A stretch of 43,685 nt of DNA, taken from the IMG/VR virus record IMGVR_UViG_3300012936_006767, positions 1-43,685 of that record. The stretch is one strand, 5' to 3'. This DNA comes from a virus. The position numbers and the translations under genes were made by a program. Of this stretch, positions 4,589-36,172 are shown one piece after another (the first letter of the stretch is position 1; each line of letters opens with the position of its first letter). The notes beneath the pieces are model-generated. The model did not search any database and was not told where the DNA came from. It was given only the letters and a program-made list of their open reading frames with translations.

Positions 4589-4595
4589 GATTTTT

Positions 4596-5417: not shown

Positions 5418-5429
5418 AAAGGAACTAAA

Positions 5430-7149: not shown

Positions 7150-7156
7150 GTGAGAA

Positions 7157-8095: not shown

Positions 8096-8131
8096 ACTTA
8101 AACTTTTGATCATTTTTTTCTAATATTGATT

Positions 8132-8137
8132 TATAAT
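8132..8137 (+). promoter_or_regulatory. Candidate promoter -10 element (TATAAT)
   Basis: A perfect TATAAT lies in the 58-base AT-rich gap between the second epimerase and the nuclease, 17 bases before the ATG at 8154. No convincing -35 box at standard spacing is seen. T4-like late promoters need only a -10-like octamer, but the T4 consensus TATAAATA is not matched exactly. No terminator hairpin is visible in the gap. Confidence 0.35.
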
Positions 8138-8153
8138 TTATAAGAGAGAAAAC

Positions 8154-9017: not shown

Positions 9018-9040
9018 GCGCGTTTACTAAACATTACCTC

Positions 9041-9050
9041 TATGTAATAT
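9041..9050 (+). promoter_or_regulatory. Weak candidate promoter element before glycosyltransferase gene
   Basis: The 39-base gap 9018-9056 holds TATGTAATAT immediately upstream of the ATG at 9057, with no Shine-Dalgarno sequence. A -10 box here would put the transcript start close to the ATG, giving a very short leader. The layout resembles the gap before 122, where TATAGT lies at 109-114. This is a suggestion only. Confidence 0.2.
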
Positions 9051-9056
9051 TCGATC

Positions 9057-10313: not shown

Positions 10314-11476
10314 AATCAGTACTTTTAAGAGGACCGGTATTTTCAAAGTCAGGTTATGGCGAGCACACTCGCCAGATTTACAGATACCTTCGAGAACAAA
10401 ACGTCAGGATATCCATAGAATCTTTGAACTGGGGATATACTCCTTGGTTTGTTAAGAGTTCTGATTACTTTGGATTGATCGGAGAGATGCAAGAAAAATG
10501 TATCAGAGATCCTGAAGAAAAATATGATGTGACCATACAGTGCCAACTTCCGAACGAATGGGATCCTAGTCTTGGTAGATTTAACATCGGAGTAACTGCA
10601 GGAGTCGAGACAGACTTTGCCAATCCTTCTTGGACAACAGTCGATGTCAATAAAATGGACCTCGTGCTAGTTCCTTCTGACTTTACTAAGAAATCTTTTG
10701 AAAAACTCGTAAAACCCAGGACTGAGATAAAAGTCGTTCCTGAGTCTTATTATGATGAGCTATTGACTGACTCTCAAAAGTCGTCGGCCGAAGAAGACCT
10801 AAAGACTGATTTTAATTTCTTGACAGTAGGCGTTCTGACTGGAACATCTCCGGAGACTGATAGAAAGAATCTTTTCTATTTAATAAAGTGGTTTGTTGAA
10901 GAGTTTAAGAATGACAATGATGTAGGCCTGGTTATAAAAACCAACAAAGGAAGAGACACAGAGATAGACAAAGTAGCAACTTCCAGGCTGCTAGCCCAGG
11001 TTCTAGGTGAGGTAGGGCATAATGGTCAACCTAGAATCTATCTTCTTCACGGAGAGATGTCCAGAGAGGAAATGAGAGATCTTTACAAGTCCGATAAGAT
11101 AAAAGCTTATGTTTCTGCGACGAGAGGAGAGGGTTTTGGTCTACCTTTGCTTGAAGCTGCAGTTTCTGGTTTGCCGGTAATTGCAACAAACTGGTCAGCA
11201 CACACTGAGTTTTTAAATAAGGGAAAATGGATAAGTCTAGATTACGACTTAAAAGAAGTTGCAGAATCAAAAATAGACGACCAGATATTCATCAGAGGCT
11301 CTAAGTGGGCTGAAGTTAGAGAAGGCGATTTTAAAAGAAAGCTCAGGAACTTTTACAAAAAGCCCGGTCTTCCAAAGGAATGGGCTAAGAATCTTAGTGG
11401 AAATCTAAAGAAAGAATACTCAATAGAATCTATTAAAAACCACTATCATGAAGCATTAGGAGATCATCTTAGTTGA
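10310..11476 (+). CDS. Second GT4-family glycosyltransferase
   Basis: This GT-B enzyme has 388 residues. The N-terminus LRGPVFSKSGYGEHTRQ (6-22) has the glycine loop of GT4 enzymes, VGVLTGTSPETDRKN (173-187) begins the donor domain, and EGFGLPLLE gives E-x7-E with Glu274 and Glu282, followed by SGLPVIATNWSAHTE. The start is TTG in a TTGA overlap with the preceding stop. The next internal Met is at residue 60, which would cut off the conserved loop, so TTG must be used. With its neighbour it probably adds two successive sugars. It differs clearly from its neighbour in sequence. Confidence 0.88.
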   Translation: MKSVLLRGPVFSKSGYGEHTRQIYRYLREQNVRISIESLNWGYTPWFVKSSDYFGLIGEMQEKCIRDPEEKYDVTIQCQLPNEWDPSLGRFNIGVTAGVETDFANPSWTTVDVNKMDLVLVPSDFTKKSFEKLVKPRTEIKVVPESYYDELLTDSQKSSAEEDLKTDFNFLTVGVLTGTSPETDRKNLFYLIKWFVEEFKNDNDVGLVIKTNKGRDTEIDKVATSRLLAQVLGEVGHNGQPRIYLLHGEMSREEMRDLYKSDKIKAYVSATRGEGFGLPLLEAAVSGLPVIATNWSAHTEFLNKGKWISLDYDLKEVAESKIDDQIFIRGSKWAEVREGDFKRKLRNFYKKPGLPKEWAKNLSGNLKKEYSIESIKNHYHEALGDHLS

Positions 11477-11766
11477 TCTATTGGTACATAGGATCAGTTG
11501 TACTTTTAACATACGCTGCACTAGTGTCATATTATTGTCTAAAGTTCGCTATGATCGTTCTTAGGGTTCAAGATTCCATAGAACAGTCTGTTGATTTAAT
11601 TGAAGAGAAATACGAAAGCATGTCTGAGATCCTATCTAGACCGCTTTTTTATGACAGTCCTGAAGTTAGAAAAGTCGTAGAAGACATTTCAGAAGTGAGA
11701 GAATCTTTAAATCAAGTAGCTTTCGACCTAACAAACAAAATAGAGAAAGACACAGAATTAGAATGA
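11473..11766 (+). CDS. Small membrane-anchored coiled-coil protein
   Basis: I do not recognise the family. Residues 2-23 are a single hydrophobic segment rich in aromatic and aliphatic residues. The rest (32-97) is charged and probably helical, with heptad-like spacing in IEQSVDLIEEKYESM and in VEDISEVRESLNQV. It should therefore be anchored in the inner membrane with a cytoplasmic coiled coil. The start is TTG in a TTGA overlap; the next Met (27) would remove the membrane segment. It overlaps the sigma-factor gene by ATGA. No function can be assigned. Confidence 0.6.
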   Translation: MIYWYIGSVVLLTYAALVSYYCLKFAMIVLRVQDSIEQSVDLIEEKYESMSEILSRPLFYDSPEVRKVVEDISEVRESLNQVAFDLTNKIEKDTELE

Positions 11767-12491
11767 AGGGTAGAAAAAAGATAAGGAGAAAACCGGGAAC
11801 TCCTAGGAACATGTACTTTACAAAAGAGACGGGAGAGTCTATTGCAAAGTATTGCGAAACTGAGTGTCCTGATTCAAAAAGAACTATATATGAAAAAGAG
11901 ATATTGCCATCATTTGCTAAATTAGCGGAGAATTTAATTTTCGTATATGGCTTTAAGTCTCCTTACGCCACCTCAGAAGAGCTTAAAGTTGACTGTGTTT
12001 CTTTTATGTTTGAGACTTTGCATAAGTGGGACCCTTCCAGGGGTTCAAAAGCTTTTTCTTATTTTAATGTTGTTGCTAAGAATTGGTTTATTATCAACAC
12101 CAGAAAGCATTTAAAAAGAAGAAATAGACATCTTAGCATTGATGATCCTAACTCTATGTCTGCAGCTCAAAGAGCAGTTTTTGAAGATTTTGACTACGTA
12201 CCGCCAGCTGATGAAATTATGATAAAAAATCAGGCTAAAAAAGAGATTATCAATCTCCTGGAGGATATGAAAGTAAAGCTTACAAATGAAAACGAGTTAA
12301 AATGTCTTCACGCAATCGAGACTCTTTTTGGCTCTATTGATGATCTTGAGCTTCTAAATAAAAGAGCAGTTCTACTATACATAAGAGAGATAAGCGGACT
12401 TGACAAGAAGCACCTCTCTAAGGCAATGTCTGTAATTAGAAGACACTATAGGTCTATGTCAAAGCTTCCTGACAAGTACTGCATTTTTTGA
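11763..12491 (+). CDS. gp55: Late-transcription sigma factor, T4 gp55-like
   Basis: This should direct host RNA polymerase to phage late promoters. A sigma-70 region 2-like segment spans about 40-115; its core KAFSYFNVVAKNWFI (96-110) is the pattern shared by gp55-type factors of T4-related phages. The N-terminus has a basic start (KGRKKIRRK) and then YFTKETGESIAKY (18-30). There is no region 4, as expected for gp55, which recognises only a -10-like element. At 242 residues it is somewhat longer than T4 gp55 (185). The C-terminus, where T4 gp55 carries its sliding-clamp-binding peptide, ends in a hydrophobic KYCIF. Placement just before the baseplate genes fits control of the late region. Confidence 0.85.
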   Translation: MKGRKKIRRKPGTPRNMYFTKETGESIAKYCETECPDSKRTIYEKEILPSFAKLAENLIFVYGFKSPYATSEELKVDCVSFMFETLHKWDPSRGSKAFSYFNVVAKNWFIINTRKHLKRRNRHLSIDDPNSMSAAQRAVFEDFDYVPPADEIMIKNQAKKEIINLLEDMKVKLTNENELKCLHAIETLFGSIDDLELLNKRAVLLYIREISGLDKKHLSKAMSVIRRHYRSMSKLPDKYCIF

Positions 12492-15231: not shown

Positions 15232-15720
15232 GTGTCTGATCAGGGAAGAAAAGTATATAGCTTTAAGTCGGTAGGTGAGACTGAGCCGGAAAGAGCTCAG
15301 AGACCCGATAGCAATAGACTAGATCTTCCGATAGGTATCAAAACTCCAATGAGGCTGTCAGCTGGTAACTTTGCTCTTTTTGATATGCACACAAACCTTG
15401 CTGCTCAAATAAGAGACAATTTCAGAAACATGGTTTCTACAAATCACGGAGAGCGTCTCTCTATATACGACTTTGGAGGAAACTTACTTCCTCTAGCTTT
15501 TGAACTCGGCGCCGATGATGTAGACACCCAGGCAATTAAGAGGATCACTGCCACTACTGAAAAGTACATGCCTTTCATTTCTTTAGAAACTTTTGAACCC
15601 TTTAGGGAGAATAGTGAAGACGGAAATCTTGCAAAGATAGGTGTTAGAGTTACTTACTCAATACCAAGTCTGCAAGTTACAGACCAGGCTGTCGAGGCTT
15701 TAATATATGCAATTGGGTGA
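15232..15720 (+). CDS. gp25: Baseplate wedge protein, gp25-like (W family)
   Basis: This is a gp25-like wedge subunit, the part of the contractile baseplate that touches the sheath start. The fold core is visible as a segment from RLSAGNFALFDM through LAAQIRDNFRNMVSTNHGER (57-74) to YDFGGNLLPLAFE (79-91). The GER followed by DFG pattern is the family hallmark. The C-terminal half ends in IGVRVTYSIPSL. At 162 residues it is slightly longer than T4 gp25 (132), mainly through an N-terminal extension of about 30 residues. It starts with GTG. It is immediately followed by the gp6-like gene, its known partner in the wedge. Confidence 0.9.
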   Translation: MSDQGRKVYSFKSVGETEPERAQRPDSNRLDLPIGIKTPMRLSAGNFALFDMHTNLAAQIRDNFRNMVSTNHGERLSIYDFGGNLLPLAFELGADDVDTQAIKRITATTEKYMPFISLETFEPFRENSEDGNLAKIGVRVTYSIPSLQVTDQAVEALIYAIG

Positions 15721-15724
15721 TTAG

Positions 15725-17617
15725 ATGACTAAGAAGATAAAAAACAGACTTAGAGCCGGATCAAATAGAACATTTCTGGCCAGGGACTTCGAAGGGTTTA
15801 GGGCTCAATTAATAGAAAGTGCCCGAATATTCTATCCAGATAAAATACAAGACTTTTCTGAAGCCTCTCTGGGAGGTCTTCTGGTTGATCTCGCAGCCAC
15901 AGTTGGAGATACTATGTCTTTTTACTTAGATCACCAGTTTAGAGAGCTTGACCCTTCAAGGGCAGTTGAATTTTCTAACATCGCTACTCATATACGAAAC
16001 GCCGGCGTCAAAATCAAAGGTGCAGCACCTGCTGCGGGAAAAGCAACTCTGAGCTTTACGGTTCCTTCTGAGTCTTACATTGACGAAAACTTTGAAACAG
16101 CGTATAGACCAAAAGAATCTGCTCTTCCTTACATTTTTGAAGAAACCATCTTAGAGTCTTCTAATGGGATTACTTTTAATTTAGTTGAAGATATAGACTT
16201 TTCCGAAAAGAATGTTTTAGGACAGTTAGTTGCAGCCAAGTCCGTCAAAGAAGTCTCAAACGGAGTTCCCAAAAATTGGACGCTGTCTAGGGAGGTTGAT
16301 GTAATATCAGGCACAGAAACTGTAGAGACTTTTGTAATAGAAGATGTTCATGAGCCTTTTAGAGAGATTCTTCTTGGGAATCAAAACGTTACGGAGGTCC
16401 TAAGCGTTTTTGACTCGGATGGAAACGAATATTTTGAAGTTGAATCGCTAAGCCAGGACACTGTTTTTGAGTCTGTTAAGAACAGCAGGAGAGAAGATGC
16501 TGATCTTGTACCCCAGACTCTTGAAATAAAGCATGCCCCTAGAAGATTTGTTTCTATAACTTCTCCATCTAATTTTAAGACCACGCTTAGATTTGGAAGC
16601 GGAAACTCTCTTTCTCTAGATGATGACATAGCACCAGACCCAAGTGAGCTAGCGCTGAGTATGTATGGAAAAAAGACTTTCTCTAGATTTTCAATCGATC
16701 CAAATGCACTAGTAGACACGCAGACCCTCGGGATCTCTCCTAGAGGGACTACAATTACAGTCACATATCGACACGGAGGCGGACTAAGGCATAATGTTCC
16801 GTCCGGAGAGATAAATGGTTTTAGCAATATTTCTCTAGAGTTTAGAAAGAACCCAGACCCCTCCGACGCACTCTCTGTTAGACTCAGCGCTTCTGTAACT
16901 AACAAAAGGGCAGCTTCGGGAGGAGACAATGCACCCGATACTGACTTCTTGAGATCTCTAATAGCACCTTCTAGAAACGCTCAATCTAGAATAGTGACCA
17001 AGGAAGACTTAATCGCAAGAATATACACCCTTCCCAATAGATTTGGAAGAGTCTTTAGGGTAGGACTTTCTGAAAATTCCATGACCGGTACCTCACTAAT
17101 AGTTCACGTGATAAGCCTGGATGCTGATGGCAACTTAGCAATATCTCCGGACACTCTTAAGCAAAACTTAAGTACTTATTTAAATGAGTTTAGACTTCTT
17201 TCTGATGCAATAGACGTCGTCGACGCAAAGGTTTTAAATTACAAAGTTAGATACGAAGTAATTTTGGACAAGAAGGTGAACAAACAGTCTACTCTTTTGT
17301 CGATAAACAGAAGTTTGGCAGAAGCCCTTCAGAGAAGATATTTTCAAATTGACCAACCGATTATAGTTGACGATATATTAAATGTCATCATAAACTCCCA
17401 GGGGGTGATTTCAGTTAACGATATAGAAATAGTTCCAGCAACCGGTGCAGAAGCTTCAGCAGGTGACAGGTTTGGAGCAGGAGAGGGCGGAAGGATATAT
17501 TCAGTCCATCCATTTCAAGCCGAGGGTAGCGTGAAAAGAGGAATCTTAACTGGTGATGTTGGATCGATCTTTGAACTAAGATATCCTGAAAACGATATAA
17601 TTGGGTATGCGGTGTAA
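15725..17617 (+). CDS. gp6: Baseplate wedge protein, gp6-like (J family)
   Basis: gp6/J proteins form the ring that holds the wedges together. The N-terminal signature is clear: a FEGFRAQLIESARIFYPDK-type opening (about 23-41), FSEASLGGLLVDLAATVGD (43-61), and SFYLDHQFRELDPSRA (64-79). The C-terminal half has the J-like arrangement LIARIYTLPNRFGRVFRVGL and, later, an inward strand LNYKVRYEVILDKKVN. The length of 630 residues is close to T4 gp6 (660). The gene follows gp25 by 4 bases and precedes the next gene by 2 bases, so these are translated together. Confidence 0.88.
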   Translation: MTKKIKNRLRAGSNRTFLARDFEGFRAQLIESARIFYPDKIQDFSEASLGGLLVDLAATVGDTMSFYLDHQFRELDPSRAVEFSNIATHIRNAGVKIKGAAPAAGKATLSFTVPSESYIDENFETAYRPKESALPYIFEETILESSNGITFNLVEDIDFSEKNVLGQLVAAKSVKEVSNGVPKNWTLSREVDVISGTETVETFVIEDVHEPFREILLGNQNVTEVLSVFDSDGNEYFEVESLSQDTVFESVKNSRREDADLVPQTLEIKHAPRRFVSITSPSNFKTTLRFGSGNSLSLDDDIAPDPSELALSMYGKKTFSRFSIDPNALVDTQTLGISPRGTTITVTYRHGGGLRHNVPSGEINGFSNISLEFRKNPDPSDALSVRLSASVTNKRAASGGDNAPDTDFLRSLIAPSRNAQSRIVTKEDLIARIYTLPNRFGRVFRVGLSENSMTGTSLIVHVISLDADGNLAISPDTLKQNLSTYLNEFRLLSDAIDVVDAKVLNYKVRYEVILDKKVNKQSTLLSINRSLAEALQRRYFQIDQPIIVDDILNVIINSQGVISVNDIEIVPATGAEASAGDRFGAGEGGRIYSVHPFQAEGSVKRGILTGDVGSIFELRYPENDIIGYAV

Positions 17618-22627: not shown

Positions 22628-23914
22628 ATGTCTAGTGTTAGAATACTAAGTGGATCTTTAACCAAAGGTTCTGTTTCTTATGATATAAATGAGGAAGGTA
22701 CTCTTAGCGGGTCTCACGTGTACGGAAACGAAGCATACGCAGACGGAATAAACTTAAAAAGCTACAATCAGATATTCCGAAGGGTGATGATATTTCCTAG
22801 ACCAAATACTTCCGACAAACTTCTTGTCGGAGGAAAACCAGTTGGAGAGAAGTACGACGACGGACTTACTCCGACATCTCCTCGTCGAAAAAAGATTTCA
22901 AAAAGTTCGGTCTGGGGAAAGCTTTATGATTTAAGTAATTTCCCACAATCAACAAGAATAGATTCAACAACGACAAACCTAATGAATATACCCGAAGGGT
23001 TTTCAGGAGGAGGAAGGTTTCTAGAAAGATCTGTTGTCAATACTGAGACAAAAATCTATATTACTGCGACCGAAGGAACAGACGAACAGCCTTATGGAGA
23101 TTTAGTTTTCGACGTTGTCGAAGAACTTGAGCAAGATCCTTATCACCTAGTGAAAGTAAGGTACAATCCAATACTTTCTACAATCTCCTTTATAGCCCAT
23201 AAAATAGGTTCGAACCACGACGCCGGCACACTTTTCACCGGCCAGACCATATTTCAAACTGGCACTAGCAAAAAAATAACGCAGGTCATAAATCATGAGA
23301 TGGAACAGCGAGACTTAGGATATCCCGCCCTTTACGACGACGGACTTCCTTTCAAAGAGGAGATAGCCCCTGAGAGTCCCGTAGAGCTTGTAAAGACTCA
23401 CCCTCAAAATGTTTATTTACCTTTGACGCTAGTAGATCCGGGAAATGCCCTTTCCATGAATGGTGTCTTAGAACCTCTTGGTATAAGAAGTAACATTGAT
23501 ATCTCTGGTCTCGAAATTCCTTTCACTACAAGGGGCCTAAGAGGAACATTAGGATCTGGTGAAGATGCTTACAGGAACAGTGTGGTGATCTCTGAGGGTT
23601 ATAATGATGGCGATCCAAAGGTTGTTCCTTTTTTAGATGCTGTAGAATACTTTGGACCTGTTGAATTACCGCCCGTGTTCGAGCCTGACGAAACTCAGAT
23701 TAAGAAATTTTCGGACACAAGTCACATGAGAGAGATATATTTCGAAAAGAGAGCAAAAAAAGGCGTGAACGTCTCCCAAGATTTTAGAACTGTCTTGATA
23801 AATGGTTCTTTCGATACTTCTGATTTTGAGTCATTCGATTACGAAGGAACTAGGGGTACTCAATATTTTGGTGGCGGAACAGATTCCATAGTTTACGGAG
23901 GCTTGAAAAAATAA
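22628..23914 (+). CDS. Putative virion structural protein, family not recognised
   Basis: I cannot name a family for this 428-residue protein. It is rich in short beta strands, Gly, Ser and Asp, and has no membrane segment or enzymatic motif. Notable stretches are the N-terminal SVRILSGSLTKGSVSYDINEEG (about 3-24), the basic SPRRKKISKSSVWGK (83-97) and a C-terminal Gly-rich TRGTQYFGGGTDSIVYGG. It lies 2 bases after the LamG/gpI-like gene and overlaps the next gene by TAATG, so it belongs to the same baseplate operon and is probably a wedge or collar component. Confidence 0.5.
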   Translation: MSSVRILSGSLTKGSVSYDINEEGTLSGSHVYGNEAYADGINLKSYNQIFRRVMIFPRPNTSDKLLVGGKPVGEKYDDGLTPTSPRRKKISKSSVWGKLYDLSNFPQSTRIDSTTTNLMNIPEGFSGGGRFLERSVVNTETKIYITATEGTDEQPYGDLVFDVVEELEQDPYHLVKVRYNPILSTISFIAHKIGSNHDAGTLFTGQTIFQTGTSKKITQVINHEMEQRDLGYPALYDDGLPFKEEIAPESPVELVKTHPQNVYLPLTLVDPGNALSMNGVLEPLGIRSNIDISGLEIPFTTRGLRGTLGSGEDAYRNSVVISEGYNDGDPKVVPFLDAVEYFGPVELPPVFEPDETQIKKFSDTSHMREIYFEKRAKKGVNVSQDFRTVLINGSFDTSDFESFDYEGTRGTQYFGGGTDSIVYGGLKK

Positions 23915-26900
23915 TGCCAAAAGCAGGATCCAGCTTAACGTATGACTTACTGAGACAGATGAACTCACCTTCGGGTTTCTCTTACACAGCTTACGACTCT
24001 TTGTATGCTTGGTACAAGTTTGATGAAACATTGACGCCCTCGGGAGAGCTCACTGATTATTCTAACAACTCCCGGGGCCTCGGGCCAAAGAGTGATTCAT
24101 TCGTTTACACCCCTGGAGCTCCTATTAGTGATTCTCCTTTTTTAAAATCTTTTGATCGAAAGTCTATAAATTTTGCCGGAGATATCTTGGTAAACGACAA
24201 TGATTCTGATTTCGTTCTATCTGAGGGATTCACAGTTGCAACCTGGATAAAAGTTGACGCATTCTCCGGATCGCACGTAGTTCTATATCAAGGTAACTCC
24301 ACGTTTAACCCCGAGACTGCCGGAACATTTTCTTTTTTTCTAGAGGTTGGAAAAGGAATCCGTTCTAATCCCTCAATTGAACTTTACATAGGTGATGCTT
24401 CGAATAGTGGAGAAATATATGCGAAGTCTGATTTCATATCTTTAAACAAATTTGATGCAAACAAATGGGTCCATATCGCAGCTTCTTACGACGGAGGAGA
24501 CAGTCCCGATTCAATATCTATCTATCTTAACGGAGAAAAACTAGGAATCCGATCAACCAGCGAGAACAATTTCACTAGCATGAACGGACCTTCGGGAGGA
24601 AGATTTTGTGTAGGTAATGCTTTTGGAGCCTCTCCGAGCTACGATTTTGATGGATCATACGCAGAATTAGCAGTTTGGTCAAAAGTTTTGAAAAGATCCG
24701 AGGTCTTCGGAGTCTATTCACTTTCTCAGGGTGCGTTCCTACCGACATCAGGAATTTTAACAAACCCAGTTAGAACTATCATAAGAGAGGATGATCACAG
24801 GACTGGGTCTTATCCCACTAATTCAAGAACTGGTGATTCTGATTTTGTTGGAAACAGAGCTATAGAACCCTACAATGACAGAAACACACTTGACTTTAAG
24901 ACAGGATTTCCCAGGGGAAAGATAGAGATAAAGTCTGGTATAAAAAAGCTTCAGTCATACGTTTTTGGTCTAACGGGCTCAGATGGATCTACGAAAGATT
25001 TCGAAATAATAAGAGCTGCAATCCCAACTCGTGAAGGAAGGTTCAGGGGAAAGCAAAGAGCACCAGGATCAACCCAGGTTAATATAACGCCGTTTTCTAC
25101 TAAGCTAACAGACTCTCTTCGTCTAGACCCGGGAGGAAACAGACATATCGCGTATATGTTGTCTGTTTGTATTAACAATGATCCAGATCTTAAGATAAAA
25201 GCCGAGCCCGTGAGCGGCTCAGTCTATCTTCAAAGCATTGAGGGAAAGAATAACTTCGGAACTTTTGGTAGAATATCTGTCTACAATCCATTAGTAGGCT
25301 CTGTTAAAGATAGAGATTATAGAGTAACAAATTTTTCTAGGGATTTCACAACAGTTAATGCTTCTACGAAACTTACCTTGAACAGCCCGTTTGCTAGAAA
25401 CAACATCAGCGCTCCCAATTCTCTGCCAGACATTATGATCGAAGGAGCCATCTTACCGGGAATATCAGATTATGGAATTCACTTCTCTCCTGGAGAAAAC
25501 ATTAGTCCTTTTGATGATAGAAAGTACTCGATAGGAAAAACAAGTTACTACGAAGAGGGAACTCCCGTTTCTATTTTACCCGGGTTCACTTCCCCTCTTC
25601 GATCCAAGACTCAAATAGTCATAAATCTAAGTTCTTCAAATGGCCCGAACGGAACTGGAACAGCCCTGTATTTTGCAACTGGAGCACAGGGCACCGGCGC
25701 ACCAGCTGAAGCCGGTCCCGAAGGATTGAATCACCCAGAAATAACGACATCTTCAAACGCCCCGGGTTTTTCTTACTGGGATGATGTTCTTAAAAAGTGG
25801 ACTTTAAAAAAAGAGATAGTCGACCCCCCGGGAATAGATTTGTTTTCCACTACAGTGGGAGTACCCTTGAACAGTCTTATGTCGTACACCCAGGGAAGAC
25901 TCTTTGGATACAGAGGTTTCACAGCACCCGTTTACACGGAGCAACCTTTAAATGACGGCGAAGCAACTACTAGTCAGACACAGGATTATTACAGGCTTAC
26001 TTCGGGAGAGATATCAGACGAAACGATAGTAGGGAAAAAGATAGATAGGTTAAAATCTTGTGCTCAACCAACCGTTTCCCTGCAGTTTCCCTTGGGAGTC
26101 CAATATCAACCCTCGGGATCTCAGTACATAGAGATGAAAAACAAGATTGGAACTCCCTTTCTTGTCGAGAAGATCAAAGTCGATATCGATGTAAATCTAG
26201 GCATTTCAAGCAATCAAGATCTTGAAACAATAGCTTTTAGAAAGTTTTTCATTCTGTGTCAAACAAACGATCCAGAAGGAAAAGTACCTGAACAGGAAAA
26301 CCAAATACCAGTCAGTGAGACTTTTCATTCACGAACTAGATCTTTCCTAAGAAAGGGAATTTCTCAAGGGTATAGAGAGATAATTACATACGGAAGGATC
26401 GGAGTCGCAAACGTAGCCAACAACTATTCTAGCTCCAGCCTGTACAATGATCTCAAGGATTCTTTTGACGCTTTTGTCACATATACGGGGGTAGACCAAC
26501 GCCGCCACGGAGTGACCTCTAGCTTAAGTCTTGAAATAGAGCCTAGAGTTGCTGAAAAGCAGTCAATGGCCGGATTTTTTACAACTTTTTCTAATTATGA
26601 CTATAGTAATGGACTTACTAACCCATTCGACGTTACAAAATGGCACTATGATAGAGACTCAAACCCGGGAGGACCAGCTTTAAACGGAAGAGCTTCAGGT
26701 AGACACCTAGGGCCTTCTCTAGAAGCTTCTGATATCGATCCTAATAATGATCCTTTCGTTGTAACTCCGGACAACGAAATTCCTACTTCTTTTTTTCCCA
26801 AGAAAAATTATTTTAAGACTTCTCCTTATATGATATTTCCTTCTGATAAGCTGATAATTGGGTGGGAAAACATCCCAGAGTTTTACTCTGAGCTCCAGGA

Positions 26901-28296
26901 GGTAAAAGATAACGCCGAAGAGATGGTCGACAGAATCAGGAACGTAAAGATAACTCTCTTCGGATCACAGGTTGTAGGAGGAGTCGAACACCACGACTCT
27001 TCAAATCAGCCTCTGACTTCTCCCGGTGTTCACGAGGCAATACTTGGTGAGCCTGTTGTCGATAAATGGGATGTCGAACCCTTGATCACTATGACTGGAT
27101 CGATCTACGATGCTAATGTTTTCGGAGCAATGCTAAACAATCACGAACCCTCAGGATCTGAAAGAGGCGTAATAAGCTCGAGAACAAAACAGTATGTCTC
27201 TCTCCGAGATCCAAATAGTTCGAACACAACAGCTGTAAAGATAACAACAAGCTCTTTCAGCAGAACAGTTCCTTTGGTCGATAATAATGTTGTTTACTAC
27301 GATTCCGCTGTCCCAAATCCAGGGTCTTTTCTCTCTGAGATCTTACCGTCAGACACCCTTTCTGAAAGAAAGTCTGTAGGTTCTGTTACTAGGTACGGGC
27401 TACAGCTAAGTACGGCCCCCGGGGAACCCACAAGAAGAGTCGCCTCTTTCTTGGGTCTCTTTAACGATCCAGATATTAACTCCTCTAGGAATAGATTTTT
27501 ACCATCAAATCCTTTTCTTTATAAGGGCAGAACGGCATTTAGAAGAGCTGCTGACGGATCGAACAGGAGATTCCAAAATATATTCTTTGAGGACAGAGTG
27601 TTTTCAGGGTCTTTTCAAAGAATTCATGGAGTTTCAGTAGGTTCCGAAAGCCAGCGTCAAAACAGATCTTCTTATACTTCTGAGGTAACCGGAAGCCGAC
27701 CCATAAAAGTAGTTTCCTTTGAGTCACCAGTTTCTGATAATCTTTTTCAGAGCGTATTAATCATGACAAAGCGACATAGAAGAGAAATCGCAATCAGGGA
27801 GACCAGAAGTCTGTACAATACACTATACGGAATTCCAAAACATTTAAGCGATGGCTCGATAAGATTTCCAGTCAGACCCGCAGGTGCTCTCGGAGTAACT
27901 GATAACATCGAAGGCTTTAAGTATGGTTTGATGAACACCACTCCTGTTTCGCCTGTTTATCAATTTTCTAGAACTTCTCATGGAAATTTTAGGGACTTGA
28001 TGTTCTCGCCTCCCGAGGGGATGATGAGAGGTCTTTACAAGATTCTTGATCCAGAAGATATCACTTCCGGAAAGCGAAAAGCCGGCCGGGATGAAGAAGG
28101 AAGCCCAGTTAAAATTAGATTTGTATCGAGAGCTGGTGAGCCTGATGTAGATCCTAGGACTACCAATTGTCAGAATCTTCATAAATTTTCTTCTTCTTCG
28201 TTTCCATATTTTGATGAGATATCAAAGGACAGAGATGTTCTTAAGAGTCCTCCGCCTGATGGAGATCTTGAGTCTTATGAAATTGAATTTGAATAA
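23914..28296 (+). CDS. Large virion protein with N-terminal LamG-like domain
   Basis: The 1460-residue chain starts with a LamG/Laminin_G_3 domain at about 28-270: LYAWYKFDETLT (30-41), GFTVATWIKVDAF (about 105-117), WVHIAASYDGG (about 187-197), SIYLNGEKLG, and a closing DGSYAELAVWSKVLKRSE. The remaining 1190 residues are an extended beta-rich region with many Ser, Asn and Pro residues and no recognisable enzyme motif. Such proteins at this place are probably baseplate-fibre connectors or short tail fibres. The LamG start matches those in the 1158-residue protein and the long fibre, so three neighbouring virion genes carry the same fold. Confidence 0.65.
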   Translation: MPKAGSSLTYDLLRQMNSPSGFSYTAYDSLYAWYKFDETLTPSGELTDYSNNSRGLGPKSDSFVYTPGAPISDSPFLKSFDRKSINFAGDILVNDNDSDFVLSEGFTVATWIKVDAFSGSHVVLYQGNSTFNPETAGTFSFFLEVGKGIRSNPSIELYIGDASNSGEIYAKSDFISLNKFDANKWVHIAASYDGGDSPDSISIYLNGEKLGIRSTSENNFTSMNGPSGGRFCVGNAFGASPSYDFDGSYAELAVWSKVLKRSEVFGVYSLSQGAFLPTSGILTNPVRTIIREDDHRTGSYPTNSRTGDSDFVGNRAIEPYNDRNTLDFKTGFPRGKIEIKSGIKKLQSYVFGLTGSDGSTKDFEIIRAAIPTREGRFRGKQRAPGSTQVNITPFSTKLTDSLRLDPGGNRHIAYMLSVCINNDPDLKIKAEPVSGSVYLQSIEGKNNFGTFGRISVYNPLVGSVKDRDYRVTNFSRDFTTVNASTKLTLNSPFARNNISAPNSLPDIMIEGAILPGISDYGIHFSPGENISPFDDRKYSIGKTSYYEEGTPVSILPGFTSPLRSKTQIVINLSSSNGPNGTGTALYFATGAQGTGAPAEAGPEGLNHPEITTSSNAPGFSYWDDVLKKWTLKKEIVDPPGIDLFSTTVGVPLNSLMSYTQGRLFGYRGFTAPVYTEQPLNDGEATTSQTQDYYRLTSGEISDETIVGKKIDRLKSCAQPTVSLQFPLGVQYQPSGSQYIEMKNKIGTPFLVEKIKVDIDVNLGISSNQDLETIAFRKFFILCQTNDPEGKVPEQENQIPVSETFHSRTRSFLRKGISQGYREIITYGRIGVANVANNYSSSSLYNDLKDSFDAFVTYTGVDQRRHGVTSSLSLEIEPRVAEKQSMAGFFTTFSNYDYSNGLTNPFDVTKWHYDRDSNPGGPALNGRASGRHLGPSLEASDIDPNNDPFVVTPDNEIPTSFFPKKNYFKTSPYMIFPSDKLIIGWENIPEFYSELQEVKDNAEEMVDRIRNVKITLFGSQVVGGVEHHDSSNQPLTSPGVHEAILGEPVVDKWDVEPLITMTGSIYDANVFGAMLNNHEPSGSERGVISSRTKQYVSLRDPNSSNTTAVKITTSSFSRTVPLVDNNVVYYDSAVPNPGSFLSEILPSDTLSERKSVGSVTRYGLQLSTAPGEPTRRVASFLGLFNDPDINSSRNRFLPSNPFLYKGRTAFRRAADGSNRRFQNIFFEDRVFSGSFQRIHGVSVGSESQRQNRSSYTSEVTGSRPIKVVSFESPVSDNLFQSVLIMTKRHRREIAIRETRSLYNTLYGIPKHLSDGSIRFPVRPAGALGVTDNIEGFKYGLMNTTPVSPVYQFSRTSHGNFRDLMFSPPEGMMRGLYKILDPEDITSGKRKAGRDEEGSPVKIRFVSRAGEPDVDPRTTNCQNLHKFSSSSFPYFDEISKDRDVLKSPPPDGDLESYEIEFE

Positions 28297-28322: not shown

Positions 28323-31300
28323 ATGTCAAAGCAATATATCGACAAGAAAAAAGCGAAAAAATCTAAAAAAATAGTCGTTCGAAACAGATCGGGAGAAGTA
28401 ACAAATACCGTCATTCCAGGCGGGCTTTCTGTTGGTATTAAGGGAGAGAATGAAGGCTTTACTGTCCATGGAGACTCTAGCTTCGAAGGAACGATCAACG
28501 CGGAAAGAATTTTGATCAATGGAATACCCGTTGAAAATTCAGCAACCGCCGGCGCCAATTTTTTCTTCACAACAAATATTCTCACAGTCGAAGCAACTCC
28601 TGATTATGCCAACCCAGTTAGCGGAGAAGACTGGCCAACCGACTTTGCCGGAGCACCCAGCGCCAAGATGGACGGATCTTTGTCGTCCGGAACTAGACTC
28701 ACCACCCCTGGGAATGACTATTCGAATACTTCTCTCGGCGGCGACTCTAATATCGATACAAACGAGTATCTTGTTGATGGTTCGAACGTAACAGCTGAGA
28801 CTGATAACGGAACTTCTCTCACGGTCTCTCTAGAGGGTCACAACGATCTTTCTCCGAGAGACTTTAGAATCAACATGAAAAGGGGTTCTAAAACTGTAGC
28901 TGCCCTAAGAATAACAAAAGATAGCAGCGGAAACGGAAATCAAGTTCTTACAGTCGCAGACTTGGCCCAGTACGAAGACGAGTCCAATTCAGATACATTT
29001 GCCAGTATATCAATTGCCATTCCATATAAGCTGAATCTAGGCTCAGGTATAGTTGACCTCACAAGGGTTTTGGTAATTCAAAAGTTGATCAGCGGACCTG
29101 CCGGTTCTGATGGATCTGACGGCTCGGACGGAGCTCCCGGAGCAGCCGGAAGCGATGGATCTGCAGGAACCGACGCAAGAGCAGTTCACTTAACAGTTTC
29201 TTCTGGCAAGAATGTAATAATATACGATCAAGACGGAGCCAACCCCGCGCCTTCTTCGATCACAATTTCTGCCACTGATCAAAACGTTCCCGACGGCACA
29301 GATGCAAAGTTTAGATTTCTTTTAAATGACTCAGAAACTCAGGCTTCTTCAGCGACTTCAACTCTTACTTTTAGTGCCCCTTCCTCAATAGACGACTCTT
29401 CTCTTCCTTTAAAGTTCGAAGTAGAGCTTAGGGAGGGCTCCGGATCTACTGTCAAAGCTACAGACCAGATAACCATTCCGGGCGTTAGGGATGGATCTGA
29501 TGCATACACTGTCGTCCTGGAAAACGAGGCTCACACAATACCGGCAGATTCTAGCGGAACCGTAATCGATCCCGACGGCGCCGGCTCCTTGACAGGCTAC
29601 GAAAATTCTGGAACAAAGATCGTAGTCTACAAAGGGGCAACTCAGTTAACTGGTCTCACTGCAGGAAGTACTCCTTCTAGCGGTGAATATGTTGTGACAC
29701 CTGCAGTTCAGCAAGGCACTATCACGGTTGGATCTTACACAGTAAACTCAGACGGGGATGTTGTGATCCCAGACCACGCCTCTTTTACTTCTGAGACTGC
29801 TCTTATTTCCTACACTATCAACGCCGAGGGATCTGCAAACATCACGAAGCTTCAGTCTTTAACAAAATCTAGGAGAGGAGTCGACGGAGTCGATGGAGCA
29901 GACGGTGAAGACGGCTCAGACGGAGCGGCAGGCAGGACTGTTAAGCTTACAACTACACACCAAGCAATCGTGTACGATGCCGCAGAGGGGAATCCTTCTC
30001 CGGACGGAGAAACTACGGGCCAGGAAGTAACAATCACCGCCACAGCGATCAACTCATCTGGAACACCTTATTACAGATTTTTTAAAGATGACTCGGTAGT
30101 CCAGGGAGGTTCTTACGGCGGTACTGATAGCACATATTCCTACATTCCCGAAGCTTCTTATTCTAACATGCCTGACAAGATCGAAGTAGAACTCAGAGAA
30201 GGAAATACTTCTGAAGATCCAGTTCTAGCAAGAGATCAGATAACGATCTTTGGTCTTAAGCCGGGAAACGACGGCTACTCAGTATTGTTAGGAAACGAAG
30301 CCCATACCATTCCAGCTAATGCTGACGGAACATTTGAATCGGGTGCTTTTGCTGGGTCTGGAACTACTTTAAACGTTTTCAAAGGTACAACTCAACTCAA
30401 GCACACGACAACCTCAGACGCGGGGTCTGGGTTCTATAGATATGCCGTAAGCGCAACCAACATATCAGCTGACGGATCTCCTGATACTTCCTCCAGTATA
30501 TATGAAGTTGTTTACGGTGACGCTGCTTCAGCCGGATCTGATTCTGAGAATAACGATACTGCGTCTATAGAATTTACAATCTATGCCGAAGAAGGCAGCG
30601 CCGACGGAGCTACGATCACAAAGACGCAGACTTTCTCCAAGTCTAAGCGAGGTGACAACGGAACAAACGGTTCAAATGGAACTGACGGAAAGACTGTAAA
30701 GCTCACTGTGTCTGTGGGCAAGCAAGGTATAGCCTATTCTGCTAACGGAGACACACCCAATCCCAGTAGCTGCACTATTCTTGCCACTAGATTTGGACCC
30801 TCTGCCAACGAAGGGCACAACGTTTACTATAGGTTCAGTATTGACGGAACACCCGAAGCCGCCGGATTCACGACAGGAGCCTCTCTGAGCTATACACCCC
30901 CTAGTAGCTATGACGACATGCCTGACACAATTCTTGTTGAGATGGGTGAGGGAACAAGTGCCAGCAACGCTGCAAGCAACGTAGTTGCCCAAGACGAGAT
31001 CACCATGTTCGGCCTTAAGCCGGGTGAGGATGGTGCTGATGCTTATACAATGATTCTGACCAACGAGGCCCACACCTTGCCTGCTACGACAACAGAGGCC
31101 GGAGATGCAACCTACACAGGATCCGGAACAACTGTTAGAGTCTACAAGGGAACAACAGAATTGACTGCTGTTGCTTCTTCTCCGACCGCAACACAATTCA
31201 CAGTAGTAGCTGAAGGAACAAACATCGACCCGAGAGGGTCATCTGCTTCTTCTGTCTCCCCGACAAGTGTAAGTGAATCAGGTGCTGTCTACGCTGATCA

Positions 31301-34300
31301 CAGCAACATGACTCAAAACAATGCTACGATCACTTACACAGTGACTACCGGAGGAAGCGGCCCGACTCTCGTTAAGGTTCAGACTCTGTCAAAGTCCATA
31401 AAAGGTGAGCAGGGAGAAACGGGAACTCGTTTACCCGGCGTGGATCTTGAAATTGACCCACCTGTCATCATTTACGACACAGCTGGCAACAATCCTGACG
31501 TATCTGAGATAGATTTGATAGCTGTTCCTAGGAACTTAGGTAACGCTGTGAATGTCCTGAATTTTGACGGAACTGCCAATGCTCGCATATATCAGGCTAG
31601 TCTCAGCTCATCGAATTTTTCATTCTCAGATGGGTCTTCTACAGACAATCCTTTTACCGTGTCTTTCTGGTTAAACGTAAATTCTGATGCTAATAGTAGT
31701 GACTTCCAGCGCCTTTATAGAAGCTGGTATCCTTTTGCAGTGGGTTACCAGAGCAATGATATGAAAATTGCTCTTAGGGATGAGACGAACAACGAAACCA
31801 ACACCTTCACATCCGCACAGTCAAGCGGAAAAGATTTTCTAGAAGACGAGGAAGGTAACTGGGTACACGTTGTTCTTGCATACACACCTGAGACTTCAAA
31901 CGGTGCAAATAACGAGAAAATTGATTTCTATAAGAACGGAAGCTTGTGGTCAACCCATGTATCGCCCAACGATTCGTACGATCACGGAGGACTTACGGAT
32001 AACCAATCCTATGTGGGCTGGTACAATGGAACCAACTCTCCGGATATGAAGTTATCAAGTTTATTGCACTACAATCACGATGGATCAAGTGGTAGAGGAA
32101 GTTCTGCGTTCACAGCATCAGATGCCGCGGCAATATATAACAGTGGATTCGTTCACACTGATTACACTTCACTTACAAAGGGTGACGACATAGTAGGGTA
32201 CTGGAGACTGGATGATGATCCTAGCACCAATAGAGTTGAAGACTATTCAGGAAATAACGAAGATTTCACCTCCATCAGTTCAGGTGTCACCAGAGATACT
32301 TCTTCTGGGCTAAGATCGAAGTCGGGCCCGTCTTACTTCACTTTTAGGGTAGCAGGATCGATTGTGGGTTCCGCAAATCAAACGATTCCTTACGTCTCTT
32401 ACACTTCAATTCCGTCACGATTCAGCGACTTCGCTTCCACTCCCAAGACTGCTGTTGTTGAAATGAGGTCCGAAAACTCGAGTGATCCAGTTGATGCGAG
32501 AGACCAGGGATCGATCACAGCTATCAATCCGGGTTCTAATGCCCCGGTTGTCATACTGGATAATCCAGTTCACTTCTTTGCCGGAGCCGGGGCGGATGGA
32601 TCTGTCTCTGATTATTCGAATTCTGGAACCGAAATACAGGTCTACAGCAACGGTGTTCTACTCTCAGGTTTGACCTCAACAGGGTCGGCTCCTACAACAG
32701 ATAGTGGAACATTTCAGGTTATCTCGAGAACTGTGACACCAGCCAACAGAGTTGTTCTGGGCGCCTTATCAAACTATACAGTTGGAACAGGCGACGATCA
32801 CGGCGACAGAATCATCGTTCCCGACCACGCACAAGCCTCGTCAGAGGGCAACCGATTCTCGAAGACAGTGGGACAGAACGCAAAAGTTACGTATCAAATA
32901 AACGTTGAAGGAACCACCGTCACCGCAGTTCAAACCCTAAACGTTAACAGTCCAGGAACCGACGGAGCAGATATCGGGGTCGATGTAAGAATAGATCCGC
33001 CGCTCGCAGTCGTTCAGACAGATAGTTTCGGAGCACCGACCTCTGGCGCTTTGGATGCTACGGCAATGACAGTAACGGTTTTTATCCTAGGTGACGGCGC
33101 AACCGTTGACAAAGCGACTCCGTATGCTGACGACACGTTTAGAATTGAAGTGGGAGATTTAGACTCCGGAGGTTTTACTGACGGAGCCGTATCTCAGACT
33201 ACAGGGGAGAGTTCTGCTTCTTATTCAGCGATCTCAGCGATGACAGCTGACGCGGTCTACAGATCTGTAAAGGTCCATGTGACTGTTGATGGAGTTCAGT
33301 ATACTCAGACCAAGGTTCAACAGATCGTTAAGGCAGTTTCACAGGTAGACGAAGTCGTGGCTATAATAGAGAAGCCGGTTGTCGCATTGCCTAGAACAAA
33401 CTGGTCGTCAACGTATGAACCAACTATATCCGACTATTCCGCAGCTGACACCTATATAAGGGTTTACAAGAATGGAACATCCGTAGGGTACCATAACACT
33501 GCCGACGGATCGATGACAAATAACAGATTCAAAGTGCTGGTAGGCCAGAGCGATGATTTCCCAACAATCAACATAACCCCAGGTAGTGTCAGTTATGCTT
33601 CCTCATACATAGCAAACGTTAGCTCTCCGAGTGGTTATGATAATGCAAATTTCCCAAATCCAGCTGTAATTGACTATCAGGTCAGATACAAGGACACTGT
33701 AGGAAATTTTCACAATATCCCGGTAAGACAGACGATGAATCCTGTCAATGAGTATCCTGCCGAAAAGACGTTTAAGCTAGGTGTTTATCATGACTTTGGT
33801 GATTACCCATTAACTGAAGGCAGCAGCACCATCAGCACCTCCGATGCCGGTTTTTTTGCAAGATACGCAACCCTAAAAACAGGATTCAATCAAGCCGGCC
33901 AAGGCAGGTATTCGAAAGCCTCTATCATACCGCAGTTTGCTTTTACATGGGGGCTAAACGGCAAAGATCCAAGTTCTAAAGGTTTTTTTCCAGGCGCACC
34001 TGCCGACGGAAACCCACTTGAAGTTACAGGATATCAGCGAACAGCCGGAAACAACGTAACCGGTTACATCGCTAGAAATGAGAGAACGAGTCGGTACACA
34101 GACTTTACCCCGACCAATCCTACGAACTTAGGCAACTATCGAGATGTGTGCGCCTATCCGGGAGTAGATATAAGGCTAGTGTCAGCAAGGGGACAAGTAT
34201 ACTATACAAACCTATCGTGGAGCACCAAAGCCTACTATGGTTCGGGTCCAACGTTCTCTCCAGTGTACAACACTTCTTTTTCCAGCTATGCCTACAGGGA

Positions 34301-34649
34301 TTGCTATTTCGGCGTCGATCTCTACACACGCCCTGTTAGCGACAATGGAGAAGGAGAGCTCACCTACCTCTGTACACTCAACATGGATAAAACCGGTGGG
34401 GGCGAAATTGACGCATATGCAAACGTCGGCGGCGGTCCTGATGCGAATAGAGCAGGCCACAGGATTGTAAGTGTCAGTGATAGAAGCTCCGATGCTAGCA
34501 CCGCTCACGATAGTACGCATATAATGAAGGTTTCAAGCACACAACAGATAATACCTGTTTTGTGGTTTCAAAAGCCTTCTTGGTACGACCGAATTCCTAA
34601 AGCAGGTTTTCTCTGGTTCGAAGCCGAAATAGGTTATTACGAGATTTAG
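28323..34649 (+). CDS. Long tail fibre: repeated modules, collagen-like linkers, inserted LamG
   Basis: This 2108-residue protein is the largest complete gene. Residues 1-256 are the attachment region, with a Lys-rich start (KKKAKKSKK) and GGLSVGIKGENEGF. Then come about five modules of roughly 257 residues. Each opens with a collagen-like GXY tract (258-285, 519-537, 777-789, a short one at 1028) and contains an Ig-like half and a second half starting VxLxNEAHT. NEAHT occurs at residues 401, 658 and 914 and a variant at 1414, with a weaker match near 1684. A LamG domain of about 250 residues is inserted in module 4. Residues 1811-2108 are unlike the repeats and probably bind the host receptor. 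GAGGG at 28305-28309 lies upstream of the ATG. Confidence 0.85.
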   Translation: MSKQYIDKKKAKKSKKIVVRNRSGEVTNTVIPGGLSVGIKGENEGFTVHGDSSFEGTINAERILINGIPVENSATAGANFFFTTNILTVEATPDYANPVSGEDWPTDFAGAPSAKMDGSLSSGTRLTTPGNDYSNTSLGGDSNIDTNEYLVDGSNVTAETDNGTSLTVSLEGHNDLSPRDFRINMKRGSKTVAALRITKDSSGNGNQVLTVADLAQYEDESNSDTFASISIAIPYKLNLGSGIVDLTRVLVIQKLISGPAGSDGSDGSDGAPGAAGSDGSAGTDARAVHLTVSSGKNVIIYDQDGANPAPSSITISATDQNVPDGTDAKFRFLLNDSETQASSATSTLTFSAPSSIDDSSLPLKFEVELREGSGSTVKATDQITIPGVRDGSDAYTVVLENEAHTIPADSSGTVIDPDGAGSLTGYENSGTKIVVYKGATQLTGLTAGSTPSSGEYVVTPAVQQGTITVGSYTVNSDGDVVIPDHASFTSETALISYTINAEGSANITKLQSLTKSRRGVDGVDGADGEDGSDGAAGRTVKLTTTHQAIVYDAAEGNPSPDGETTGQEVTITATAINSSGTPYYRFFKDDSVVQGGSYGGTDSTYSYIPEASYSNMPDKIEVELREGNTSEDPVLARDQITIFGLKPGNDGYSVLLGNEAHTIPANADGTFESGAFAGSGTTLNVFKGTTQLKHTTTSDAGSGFYRYAVSATNISADGSPDTSSSIYEVVYGDAASAGSDSENNDTASIEFTIYAEEGSADGATITKTQTFSKSKRGDNGTNGSNGTDGKTVKLTVSVGKQGIAYSANGDTPNPSSCTILATRFGPSANEGHNVYYRFSIDGTPEAAGFTTGASLSYTPPSSYDDMPDTILVEMGEGTSASNAASNVVAQDEITMFGLKPGEDGADAYTMILTNEAHTLPATTTEAGDATYTGSGTTVRVYKGTTELTAVASSPTATQFTVVAEGTNIDPRGSSASSVSPTSVSESGAVYADHSNMTQNNATITYTVTTGGSGPTLVKVQTLSKSIKGEQGETGTRLPGVDLEIDPPVIIYDTAGNNPDVSEIDLIAVPRNLGNAVNVLNFDGTANARIYQASLSSSNFSFSDGSSTDNPFTVSFWLNVNSDANSSDFQRLYRSWYPFAVGYQSNDMKIALRDETNNETNTFTSAQSSGKDFLEDEEGNWVHVVLAYTPETSNGANNEKIDFYKNGSLWSTHVSPNDSYDHGGLTDNQSYVGWYNGTNSPDMKLSSLLHYNHDGSSGRGSSAFTASDAAAIYNSGFVHTDYTSLTKGDDIVGYWRLDDDPSTNRVEDYSGNNEDFTSISSGVTRDTSSGLRSKSGPSYFTFRVAGSIVGSANQTIPYVSYTSIPSRFSDFASTPKTAVVEMRSENSSDPVDARDQGSITAINPGSNAPVVILDNPVHFFAGAGADGSVSDYSNSGTEIQVYSNGVLLSGLTSTGSAPTTDSGTFQVISRTVTPANRVVLGALSNYTVGTGDDHGDRIIVPDHAQASSEGNRFSKTVGQNAKVTYQINVEGTTVTAVQTLNVNSPGTDGADIGVDVRIDPPLAVVQTDSFGAPTSGALDATAMTVTVFILGDGATVDKATPYADDTFRIEVGDLDSGGFTDGAVSQTTGESSASYSAISAMTADAVYRSVKVHVTVDGVQYTQTKVQQIVKAVSQVDEVVAIIEKPVVALPRTNWSSTYEPTISDYSAADTYIRVYKNGTSVGYHNTADGSMTNNRFKVLVGQSDDFPTINITPGSVSYASSYIANVSSPSGYDNANFPNPAVIDYQVRYKDTVGNFHNIPVRQTMNPVNEYPAEKTFKLGVYHDFGDYPLTEGSSTISTSDAGFFARYATLKTGFNQAGQGRYSKASIIPQFAFTWGLNGKDPSSKGFFPGAPADGNPLEVTGYQRTAGNNVTGYIARNERTSRYTDFTPTNPTNLGNYRDVCAYPGVDIRLVSARGQVYYTNLSWSTKAYYGSGPTFSPVYNTSFSSYAYRDCYFGVDLYTRPVSDNGEGELTYLCTLNMDKTGGGEIDAYANVGGGPDANRAGHRIVSVSDRSSDASTAHDSTHIMKVSSTQQIIPVLWFQKPSWYDRIPKAGFLWFEAEIGYYEI
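29094..33749 (+). repeat. Protein-level tandem repeat array within the tail fibre
   Basis: The array encodes about five diverged copies of a module near 257 residues (771 bases). Anchor codons for the NEAHT motif start at 29523, 30294 and 31062, so the first three copies are spaced 257 and 256 residues apart. The fourth anchor (NPVHF) is at 32562, 500 residues on, because a domain of about 244 residues is inserted in that copy. The fifth, weak anchor is near 33372, 270 residues further. Collagen-like tracts encode the junctions at 29094-29177, 29877-29933, 30651-30689 and 31404-31424. Confidence 0.8.
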
Positions 34650-34658
34650 AAGGAAAAA

Positions 34659-35069
34659 ATGTTTCAGACAATTAATAGCGTGATTGTTGAAGTACTAAGG
34701 GGAAATGAAAACCTGACAAGATTAAATGCAGGGTGTCTAAACTTGTTCTTTTATCCGGAAGATAATCTTGAAATAACCCTGACGCCTGGAGAAACTAGAT
34801 ATCTCCAGACTGGTCTAAAGGTGTTACCGCCATTTGGATGTATCGCCGGAATAACTAGTAGAAAAATATTTGAAGACAAAAAACTAATATGTCTTTTCAG
34901 TTCTGTCTGTCTAGATACAGACTTTTCTGATGAGATTGTTTTGCCTTTTCAAAACTTAGGAAGCACAGACCAGACTTTAAGCCCTGGCAGTAATTTTGCT
35001 GAGATGTATTTTATAAAAGTATCAAGCCCACTCCTTCAGATAACTTCAAGTGGGTCTTTAGAAGAATAG
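34659..35069 (+). CDS. Degenerate dUTPase-fold protein in the tail module
   Basis: The 136-residue chain follows the trimeric dUTPase layout from end to end. NAGCLNL (23-29) replaces motif 1 AGxDL, so its Asp is lost. TPGETRYLQTGLKVLPP (42-58) matches the PGE and TGL strands. TSRKIFEDKKLIC (66-78) stands where motif 2 RSxLA lies and lacks the second Ser. CLDTDFSDEIVLPFQNLG (84-101) matches motif 3 IDxDYxGE and keeps Asp86. PGSNFAEMYFIKV (109-121) matches motif 4 GDRIAQ with Gln to Glu. The Gly-rich motif 5 is absent; the chain ends in SSGSLEE. Catalysis is therefore doubtful. AAGGA before the ATG and 9 bases from the fibre stop suggest co-expression with tail genes. Confidence 0.65.
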   Translation: MFQTINSVIVEVLRGNENLTRLNAGCLNLFFYPEDNLEITLTPGETRYLQTGLKVLPPFGCIAGITSRKIFEDKKLICLFSSVCLDTDFSDEIVLPFQNLGSTDQTLSPGSNFAEMYFIKVSSPLLQITSSGSLEE

Positions 35070-35137: not shown

Positions 35138-36172
35138 ATGGCAGGAATACTAGACAGCAAAGAAAGAGTTATAGACTTCATCATCACTCCGAACGGTAGA
35201 TCTCAGATATCTTCCGGGCGACTTAAAATTGAGTTTGCATCTCTTTCAGATACCCAGACTTTCTATAGATCTGCATCTCTCGATCGAGTCGCTGACGATG
35301 CTTCTGAGCGAGTCTATTTTGAGACAAACTCTTCTCCTTCTGACACGATCTCACCTGAGCTCGAAGCCGGCACTTTTCTCAAAGGTTTTAGAGCAGGTGA
35401 ATTTGAAGTACAGGGTCAGAAATTTGCTCTAAACTCCCTGAATGAAAACTCCGGGCAGGAGACTTCCACAATCCTGAGCGGATCTAAGATAATAGATAAC
35501 TCAGTAAAACTAACTGAAAACATCATTAACAATTTCACCAGTCTAAGAATTCTAGGCACCGAAGATCTCTTTTCTGACACCTCTGAATTTGATATTGGAT
35601 ATGCTACGGGAAGTTTTGTTATCACTCAGAGAGATCTCGAGATCAATCAAGGAAAAGGCATTTATCTTAAGGATGTCTCTCCTAGGGATTACAACACAGA
35701 GAGCCCAGCCAATGCTGAACCCGATGGAGCTGTGACTCTAGAAAACTCTCCAAGCATATTCTCAGACCCTCGGTTTGATCATCTGCCAAACTATAGGTAC
35801 TTACCTCCTGTAAATCTACCAGATCCAGGAAAAGACCCGGAGGTGATGGGTCTCTATCCCAGGCTTGACAACAACAAAGATCCTGGAAATTCTAATTCTA
35901 TATTTCAAAATCTTGAAACAAGGCAGAAAATTGAGTTAGAGTTTAATCAAATATCGAGGTCTAGAAATCTAATGTGCCAAGTCTTTGAGTTTGTTAGATC
36001 AAACACGGGAGGAGTAGAAAAACTCTCTGCTGTTGACAACGGAATATACGAAGATCCTGAGACAGGAGAGCTTTCTCACATATTTTATATCGGTAAGCTC
36101 AAAAAAGATCAGAACGGATCTGATACTTTTCTTAATATTTTTACCCTAAGGTTTTCAGGCCTTGGTGATTGA
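35138..36172 (+). CDS. Putative virion structural protein
   Basis: I do not recognise a characterised family. The N-terminus, GILDSKERVIDFIITPNGRSQISSG (3-27 in two parts), followed by LKIEFASLSDTQTFY, resembles a protein opening I associate with large phages, where an NGR/QGR motif is followed by a beta strand and FxDxxxF; this recollection is not a firm assignment. The rest alternates beta strands with acidic loops. A Pro- and Asp-rich middle (about 205-255) contains LPNYRYLPPVNLPDPG, and the C-terminal part ends with strands (FLNIFTLRFSGLGD). It follows its own gap and candidate promoter and precedes another structural gene by 10 bases. Confidence 0.55.
   Translation: MAGILDSKERVIDFIITPNGRSQISSGRLKIEFASLSDTQTFYRSASLDRVADDASERVYFETNSSPSDTISPELEAGTFLKGFRAGEFEVQGQKFALNSLNENSGQETSTILSGSKIIDNSVKLTENIINNFTSLRILGTEDLFSDTSEFDIGYATGSFVITQRDLEINQGKGIYLKDVSPRDYNTESPANAEPDGAVTLENSPSIFSDPRFDHLPNYRYLPPVNLPDPGKDPEVMGLYPRLDNNKDPGNSNSIFQNLETRQKIELEFNQISRSRNLMCQVFEFVRSNTGGVEKLSAVDNGIYEDPETGELSHIFYIGKLKKDQNGSDTFLNIFTLRFSGLGD

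Follow-up and report, generated by a model that had tools for sequence, protein, structure and literature searches.

A catalytically degenerate dUTPase-superfamily protein encoded directly behind a tail-fibre-like gene of a tailed phage

In the window (the whole stretch of DNA analysed, a 43.7-kb virus fragment of 43,685 nt from a marine phage), a short gene for a dUTPase-like protein lies in a fibre cassette, which raises the question of whether its product, hereafter the window protein, is still an enzyme and, if not, what it does there. The features discussed are listed in Table 1. The location behind the long fibre given by an earlier sequence-only reading was borne out: the open reading frame starts 9 bp after the stop codon of the 2108-residue fibre, and gene E (344 residues) follows after a gap of 68 bp. 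The frame begins with ATG and is preceded by an SD-like AAGGA, its base composition varies with codon position, and it runs through 136 codons without an internal stop, which none of 20000 base shuffles does. The window contains no T4 late promoter TATAAATA, and a promoter and terminator scan performed no better than shuffles. To the eye, an ORF of 242 amino acids at 11763-12491 looks like a late sigma factor of the T4 gp55 type; Pfam gave no match for it.

Table 1. Positions of the genes and intervals considered in the window.
Feature	Position	Strand	Remarks
gp25-like baseplate wedge gene	15232..15720	+	Pfam GPW_gp25, E-value 1.7e-5, slightly under cut-off
Baseplate wedge (gp6/J-like) gene	15725..17617	+	weak Pfam Baseplate_J match
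Gene D	23914..28296	+	1460 aa; conserved gene that bounds the fibre cassette on the left
Long collagen-containing tail-fibre-like gene	28323..34649	+	2108 aa; mostly 68-98% identity to sister phage as far as about residue 1350, C-terminal part divergent
Divergent 3' part of the fibre gene	32400..34649	+	16-30% identity to sister phage from about residue 1650
dUTPase-superfamily ORF	34659..35069	+	136 aa, degenerate motifs 1-4, no motif 5
DNA similarity to sister phage resumes	35125..35137	+	13 bp before gene E
Gene E	35138..36172	+	344 aa, conserved right border; 97% in sister phage; 39 related IMG/VR loci

Membership of the window protein in the trimeric dUTPase superfamily was confirmed by sequence comparison. 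A phmmer search of PDB returned only dUTPases and dCTP deaminases (best E-value 1.8e-4), one match being named merely "putative uncharacterized", and the dCTP deaminase matches were weaker than those to dUTPases. The NCBIfam model dut (TIGR00576) matched with an E-value of 3.9e-7 and 29.9 bits (cut-off 102.55 bits), and Pfam PF00692 gave 13 bits against a cut-off of 22 bits, so that the protein would be missed by standard annotation. Alignment with other phage dUTPases fetched 80 loci, 64 of them distinct, and a profile of these 64 intact phage dUTPases, built with the window protein left out, scored it at 57.3 bits (E-value 7e-20 for one sequence); the highest of 2000 shuffles reached 7.8 bits. 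The alignment along dUTPase motifs 1-4, as had been claimed, thus holds. The nearest relative is the intact marine-phage dUTPase L096 (IMGVR_UViG_3300030331_006142), with 33% identity over residues 5-134 and an E-value of 4e-18, and no close relatives were found in viral and bacterial genome collections. In a phylogenetic tree the terminal branch of the window protein has a length of about 10 and is saturated, which makes its placement unusable. GenBank phage matches were ordinary dUTPases where annotated; among three of them inspected individually, one has replication/recombination neighbours and two carry no useful annotation.

All 64 distinct relatives show complete motifs, and it is in these motifs that the window protein is changed. 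The motif 1 Asp is replaced by N28 (or L27 in another alignment), and motif 2 (N/K-R/S/G) reads S67-R68-K69-I70, with loss of the Asn and of both Ser/Gly positions. Motif 3 keeps D86 and E92 and shows the changes Gly88 to Asp, Tyr89 to Phe and Gly91 to Asp, with Asn96 to Pro directly after it. In motif 4 (Gly-x-Arg/Lys-x-x-Gln), the Lys/Arg has become N112 and the Gln E115. Motif 5, the glycine-rich C-terminal arm, is missing, and the frames downstream of the ORF contain no remnant of it. The sequence-only reading had listed as lost the motif 1 Asp, the second Ser of motif 2, the motif 4 Gln and all of motif 5; every entry is correct, but the list is incomplete: both Ser/Gly positions are gone from motif 2, the glycines and the Tyr from motif 3 and the Lys/Arg from motif 4. 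The structural turns PG/TG/NxG are kept (P43, T51-G52, P58 and N99-G101). Of the 41 columns that are near-invariant in the 64 relatives, 13 (32%) are conserved in the window protein, against 93-100% in each of the 64 intact dUTPases. Judged from these residues, the catalytic apparatus has clearly been lost and, because active-site residues are missing, the protein would no longer hydrolyse dUTP.

The dUTPase fold, on the other hand, is probably kept, as sequence and modelling suggest. Comparison of a predicted structure with dUTPase, which had been proposed as a check, gave a divided outcome. AlphaFold2 run on the single sequence produced an unusable model (pLDDT 40), while with the dUTPase alignment the pLDDT was 76.9. 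The 50 best matches of this model in PDB were dUTPases throughout, with a TM of about 0.8, a result which is a compatibility test and not independent proof, because the alignment behind the model consists of dUTPases. The fold matches include an adenovirus 17 kDa protein, which we take to be E4 ORF1.

The intact relatives whose neighbours were examined mostly have DNA polymerase III alpha and IMP dehydrogenase as adjacent genes, and none of these relatives has tail genes beside it; neighbour genes were identified with Pfam for L096 and by similarity of translations for the others. Three contigs with such intact dUTPases encode a baseplate protein 30-32% identical to that of the window, which places the putative donor clade in distantly related marine phages. 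Related phages were searched for with the baseplate wedge (gp6/J-like) gene as query, and contig IMGVR_UViG_3300031841_005609 is referred to as the sister phage (gene E 97% and baseplate wedge protein 90% identical). The dUTPase of the sister phage is encoded beside nrdB (ribonucleotide reductase), about 65 kb from the fibre place, and its similarity to the window protein is 12.6 bits versus 61.8 for L096. As it is so much less similar, duplication of the phage's own dUTPase was rejected as the simplest origin, although the window itself is a fragment. A profile search found no second dUTPase gene in any of 40 records. The sister's own dUTPase (L086:1330-1830) is divergent too: it has 166 amino acids, KERGSV as motif 2 and RAQGSLGSSD as motif 5, and keeps 71% of the near-invariant columns.

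The sister phage has the fibre shaft in common with the window phage and a different tip, and both fibres can be aligned again over their final ~60 residues, with 33% identity (none of 1000 shuffles was as good). In the sister, the fibre stop is followed by gene E after 58 bp and the dUTPase gene is absent there. In this single comparison, therefore, the two phages differ over one interval, which takes in the dUTPase-like gene together with the fibre tip, and the gene, located directly 3' of the fibre, occurs with one tip and not with the other. The GC3 of the gene is 0.30 versus 0.47 in the fibre tip, so that gene and tip need not share an origin. No other phages with the C-terminus of the window fibre were found. 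The middle part of the fibre was matched in the sister, in L198 and partially in L197 and L199; L198 is a near-identical relative which ends inside the fibre, and L197 and L199 show no comparable arrangement. Stretches of gene D and of the fibre gene (23914-28296 and 31400-32300) resemble LamG/concanavalin-type domains by eye.

Homologues of gene D are present at most of the 39 gene E loci. At many of them D directly abuts E, and at about ten there is cargo in between: a collagen gene (L210), collagen and Peptidase_S74 (L236), Peptidase_S74 (L240), and short genes with the N-terminal anchor of the window fibre (L205, L206 and L240). The cargo of these relatives is of the fibre type, and the window gene thus sits at a site that elsewhere serves for fibre genes. 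None of the 39 E loci shows a dUTPase-like protein in the D-E interval, which leaves the window as the single known instance. A search for a dUTPase-like domain hidden in the fibres or cassette genes of the relatives also found none. In marine phages, the D-E interval (the region 5' of the E match in L204-L240) is a variable fibre slot, whose contents include collagen, Peptidase_S74 and beta-helix-like proteins.

The explanation that we favour, with slightly less than an even chance of being correct, is that a catalytically dead and probably trimeric dUTPase-fold protein has been reused in the fibre cassette as a tip adhesin or an assembly partner. A dUTPase gene of the marine-phage clade with the DNA polymerase III alpha / IMP dehydrogenase locus would have moved between genes D and E and been exapted in the fibre cassette. 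To judge from its family, the product would still form a dUTPase-type threefold trimer and may work with the presumably trimeric fibre, either as an adhesin bound to the tip, like gp38 in T2-type phages, or, produced beside the fibre, as a partner in its assembly, like T4 gp38, Mu Tfa and V22 gp27. To our knowledge, T4/T2 gp38, Mu Tfa and V22 gp27 are not dUTPase-like. What they have in common with the window gene is that each is a small gene directly downstream of a fibre, and genes directly 3' of fibres often encode fibre adhesins or chaperones, as in T4, Mu and V22 gp27 (PMC7289586). The presence of the dUTPase-like gene where the fibre tip differs points, without proof, to reuse of the fold in a part of the host-recognition fibre or in a helper for it. 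The sequence-only reading had proposed reuse as a virion part or a signalling protein; fold retention and catalytic loss agree with reuse, and it is the position of the gene that points to a role in the virion or fibre. The single occurrence of the gene argues against a fibre role. A narrower version, in which the dead dUTPase trimer is the receptor-binding knob on the tail-fibre tip, or a permanent part of that knob, is rather unlikely.

A possible but somewhat unlikely alternative is an accessory (moron-like) intracellular protein whose dUTPase fold is kept as a scaffold for binding other proteins, for instance a regulator of the host or of a satellite, the cassette site being incidental. 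Precedents are the binding of the SaPI Stl repressor by trimeric dUTPases of phages (PMC5593958) and the regulatory or immune functions of dead dUTPase relatives in herpesviruses (PMC11599850), and a single occurrence with a GC3 unlike that of the fibre tip would suit such a protein. The staphylococcal phage dUTPases that act on Stl are comparable in that a trimeric dUTPase serves as a protein-binding signal; however, they are active, and Stl binding requires motifs IV and V and an extra motif VI (PMC5593958). In the window protein motif IV is altered, motif V is absent and no insertion of the size of motif VI is present, which makes an Stl-type mechanism unlikely. In addition, a PADLOC search gave no match, and the gene stands 9 bp behind a structural gene in a cassette which carries fibre genes in relatives. 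A fibre-assembly chaperone that does not stay in the virion would be a narrower, overlapping form of the reuse in the fibre cassette favoured above. The short spacing to the fibre and the frequent location of chaperone genes directly downstream of fibres (PMC7289586) speak for it, but the sister fibre, with homologous C-terminal ~60 residues, does without such a gene, which weakens this variant and argues against a general chaperone for that end of the fibre; furthermore, no precedent of a dUTPase-fold fibre chaperone was found in the literature searched, and we consider it clearly unlikely.

That the ORF is a functionless, decaying dUTPase gene inserted by recombination would account for its extreme divergence, seen in the saturated terminal branch, and for its single occurrence. 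Against decay, all 136 codons are open behind a start and an SD-like site, which together with the shuffles and the codon-position composition argues for function, and core turn residues are kept while active-site residues are lost; decay is therefore improbable. It is even harder to regard the protein as an enzyme that has diverged strongly but still works, as a dUTPase or a related dUTP/dCTP hydrolase, which we take to be very improbable: D86 and E92 of motif 3 are kept and the DCD-DUT enzymes also lack motif 5 (PMC5593958), but the motif 1 Asp and the motif 2 and motif 4 residues are all lost, and the dCTP deaminases gave the weaker matches.

With trimeric dUTPase (EC 3.6.1.23; PF00692, TIGR00576), the window protein shares the order of the motifs, about 33% identity to L096 and, in the model built on the dUTPase alignment, the beta fold; it differs in having lost the active site and in being encoded in a fibre cassette instead of a replication locus. 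Herpesvirus DURPs (e.g. HCMV UL82/pp71) and adenovirus E4 ORF1 have kept the fold, lost the enzyme activity and acquired new roles, and some of these reused proteins are virion (tegument) proteins (PMC11599850, PMC8961515). They resemble the window protein in having a dead dUTPase fold; however, DURPs are multi-domain proteins of unrelated viruses, whereas the window protein is a single domain of 136 residues encoded beside the fibre of a tailed phage. Reuse of the dUTPase fold after loss of activity is thus known from herpesviruses, while a limited literature search found no dead dUTPase fold in a tailed-phage fibre or tail, and no such case in a fibre cassette. If the protein is located on the fibre, it would show the recruitment of an already threefold trimeric enzyme to a threefold fibre, and a protein type not recognised so far would join the host-recognition modules of phages. 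In automated annotation it would be overlooked or wrongly named a dUTPase.

Upstream of the tail genes, the window also contains an apparent run of sugar or surface-polymer genes (122-11476), recognised by eye from the translations. It includes nucleotidyltransferase-like and UDP-glucose dehydrogenase-like genes, two NDP-sugar epimerase-like and two glycosyltransferase-like genes, as well as sulfotransferase-like and methyltransferase-like genes.
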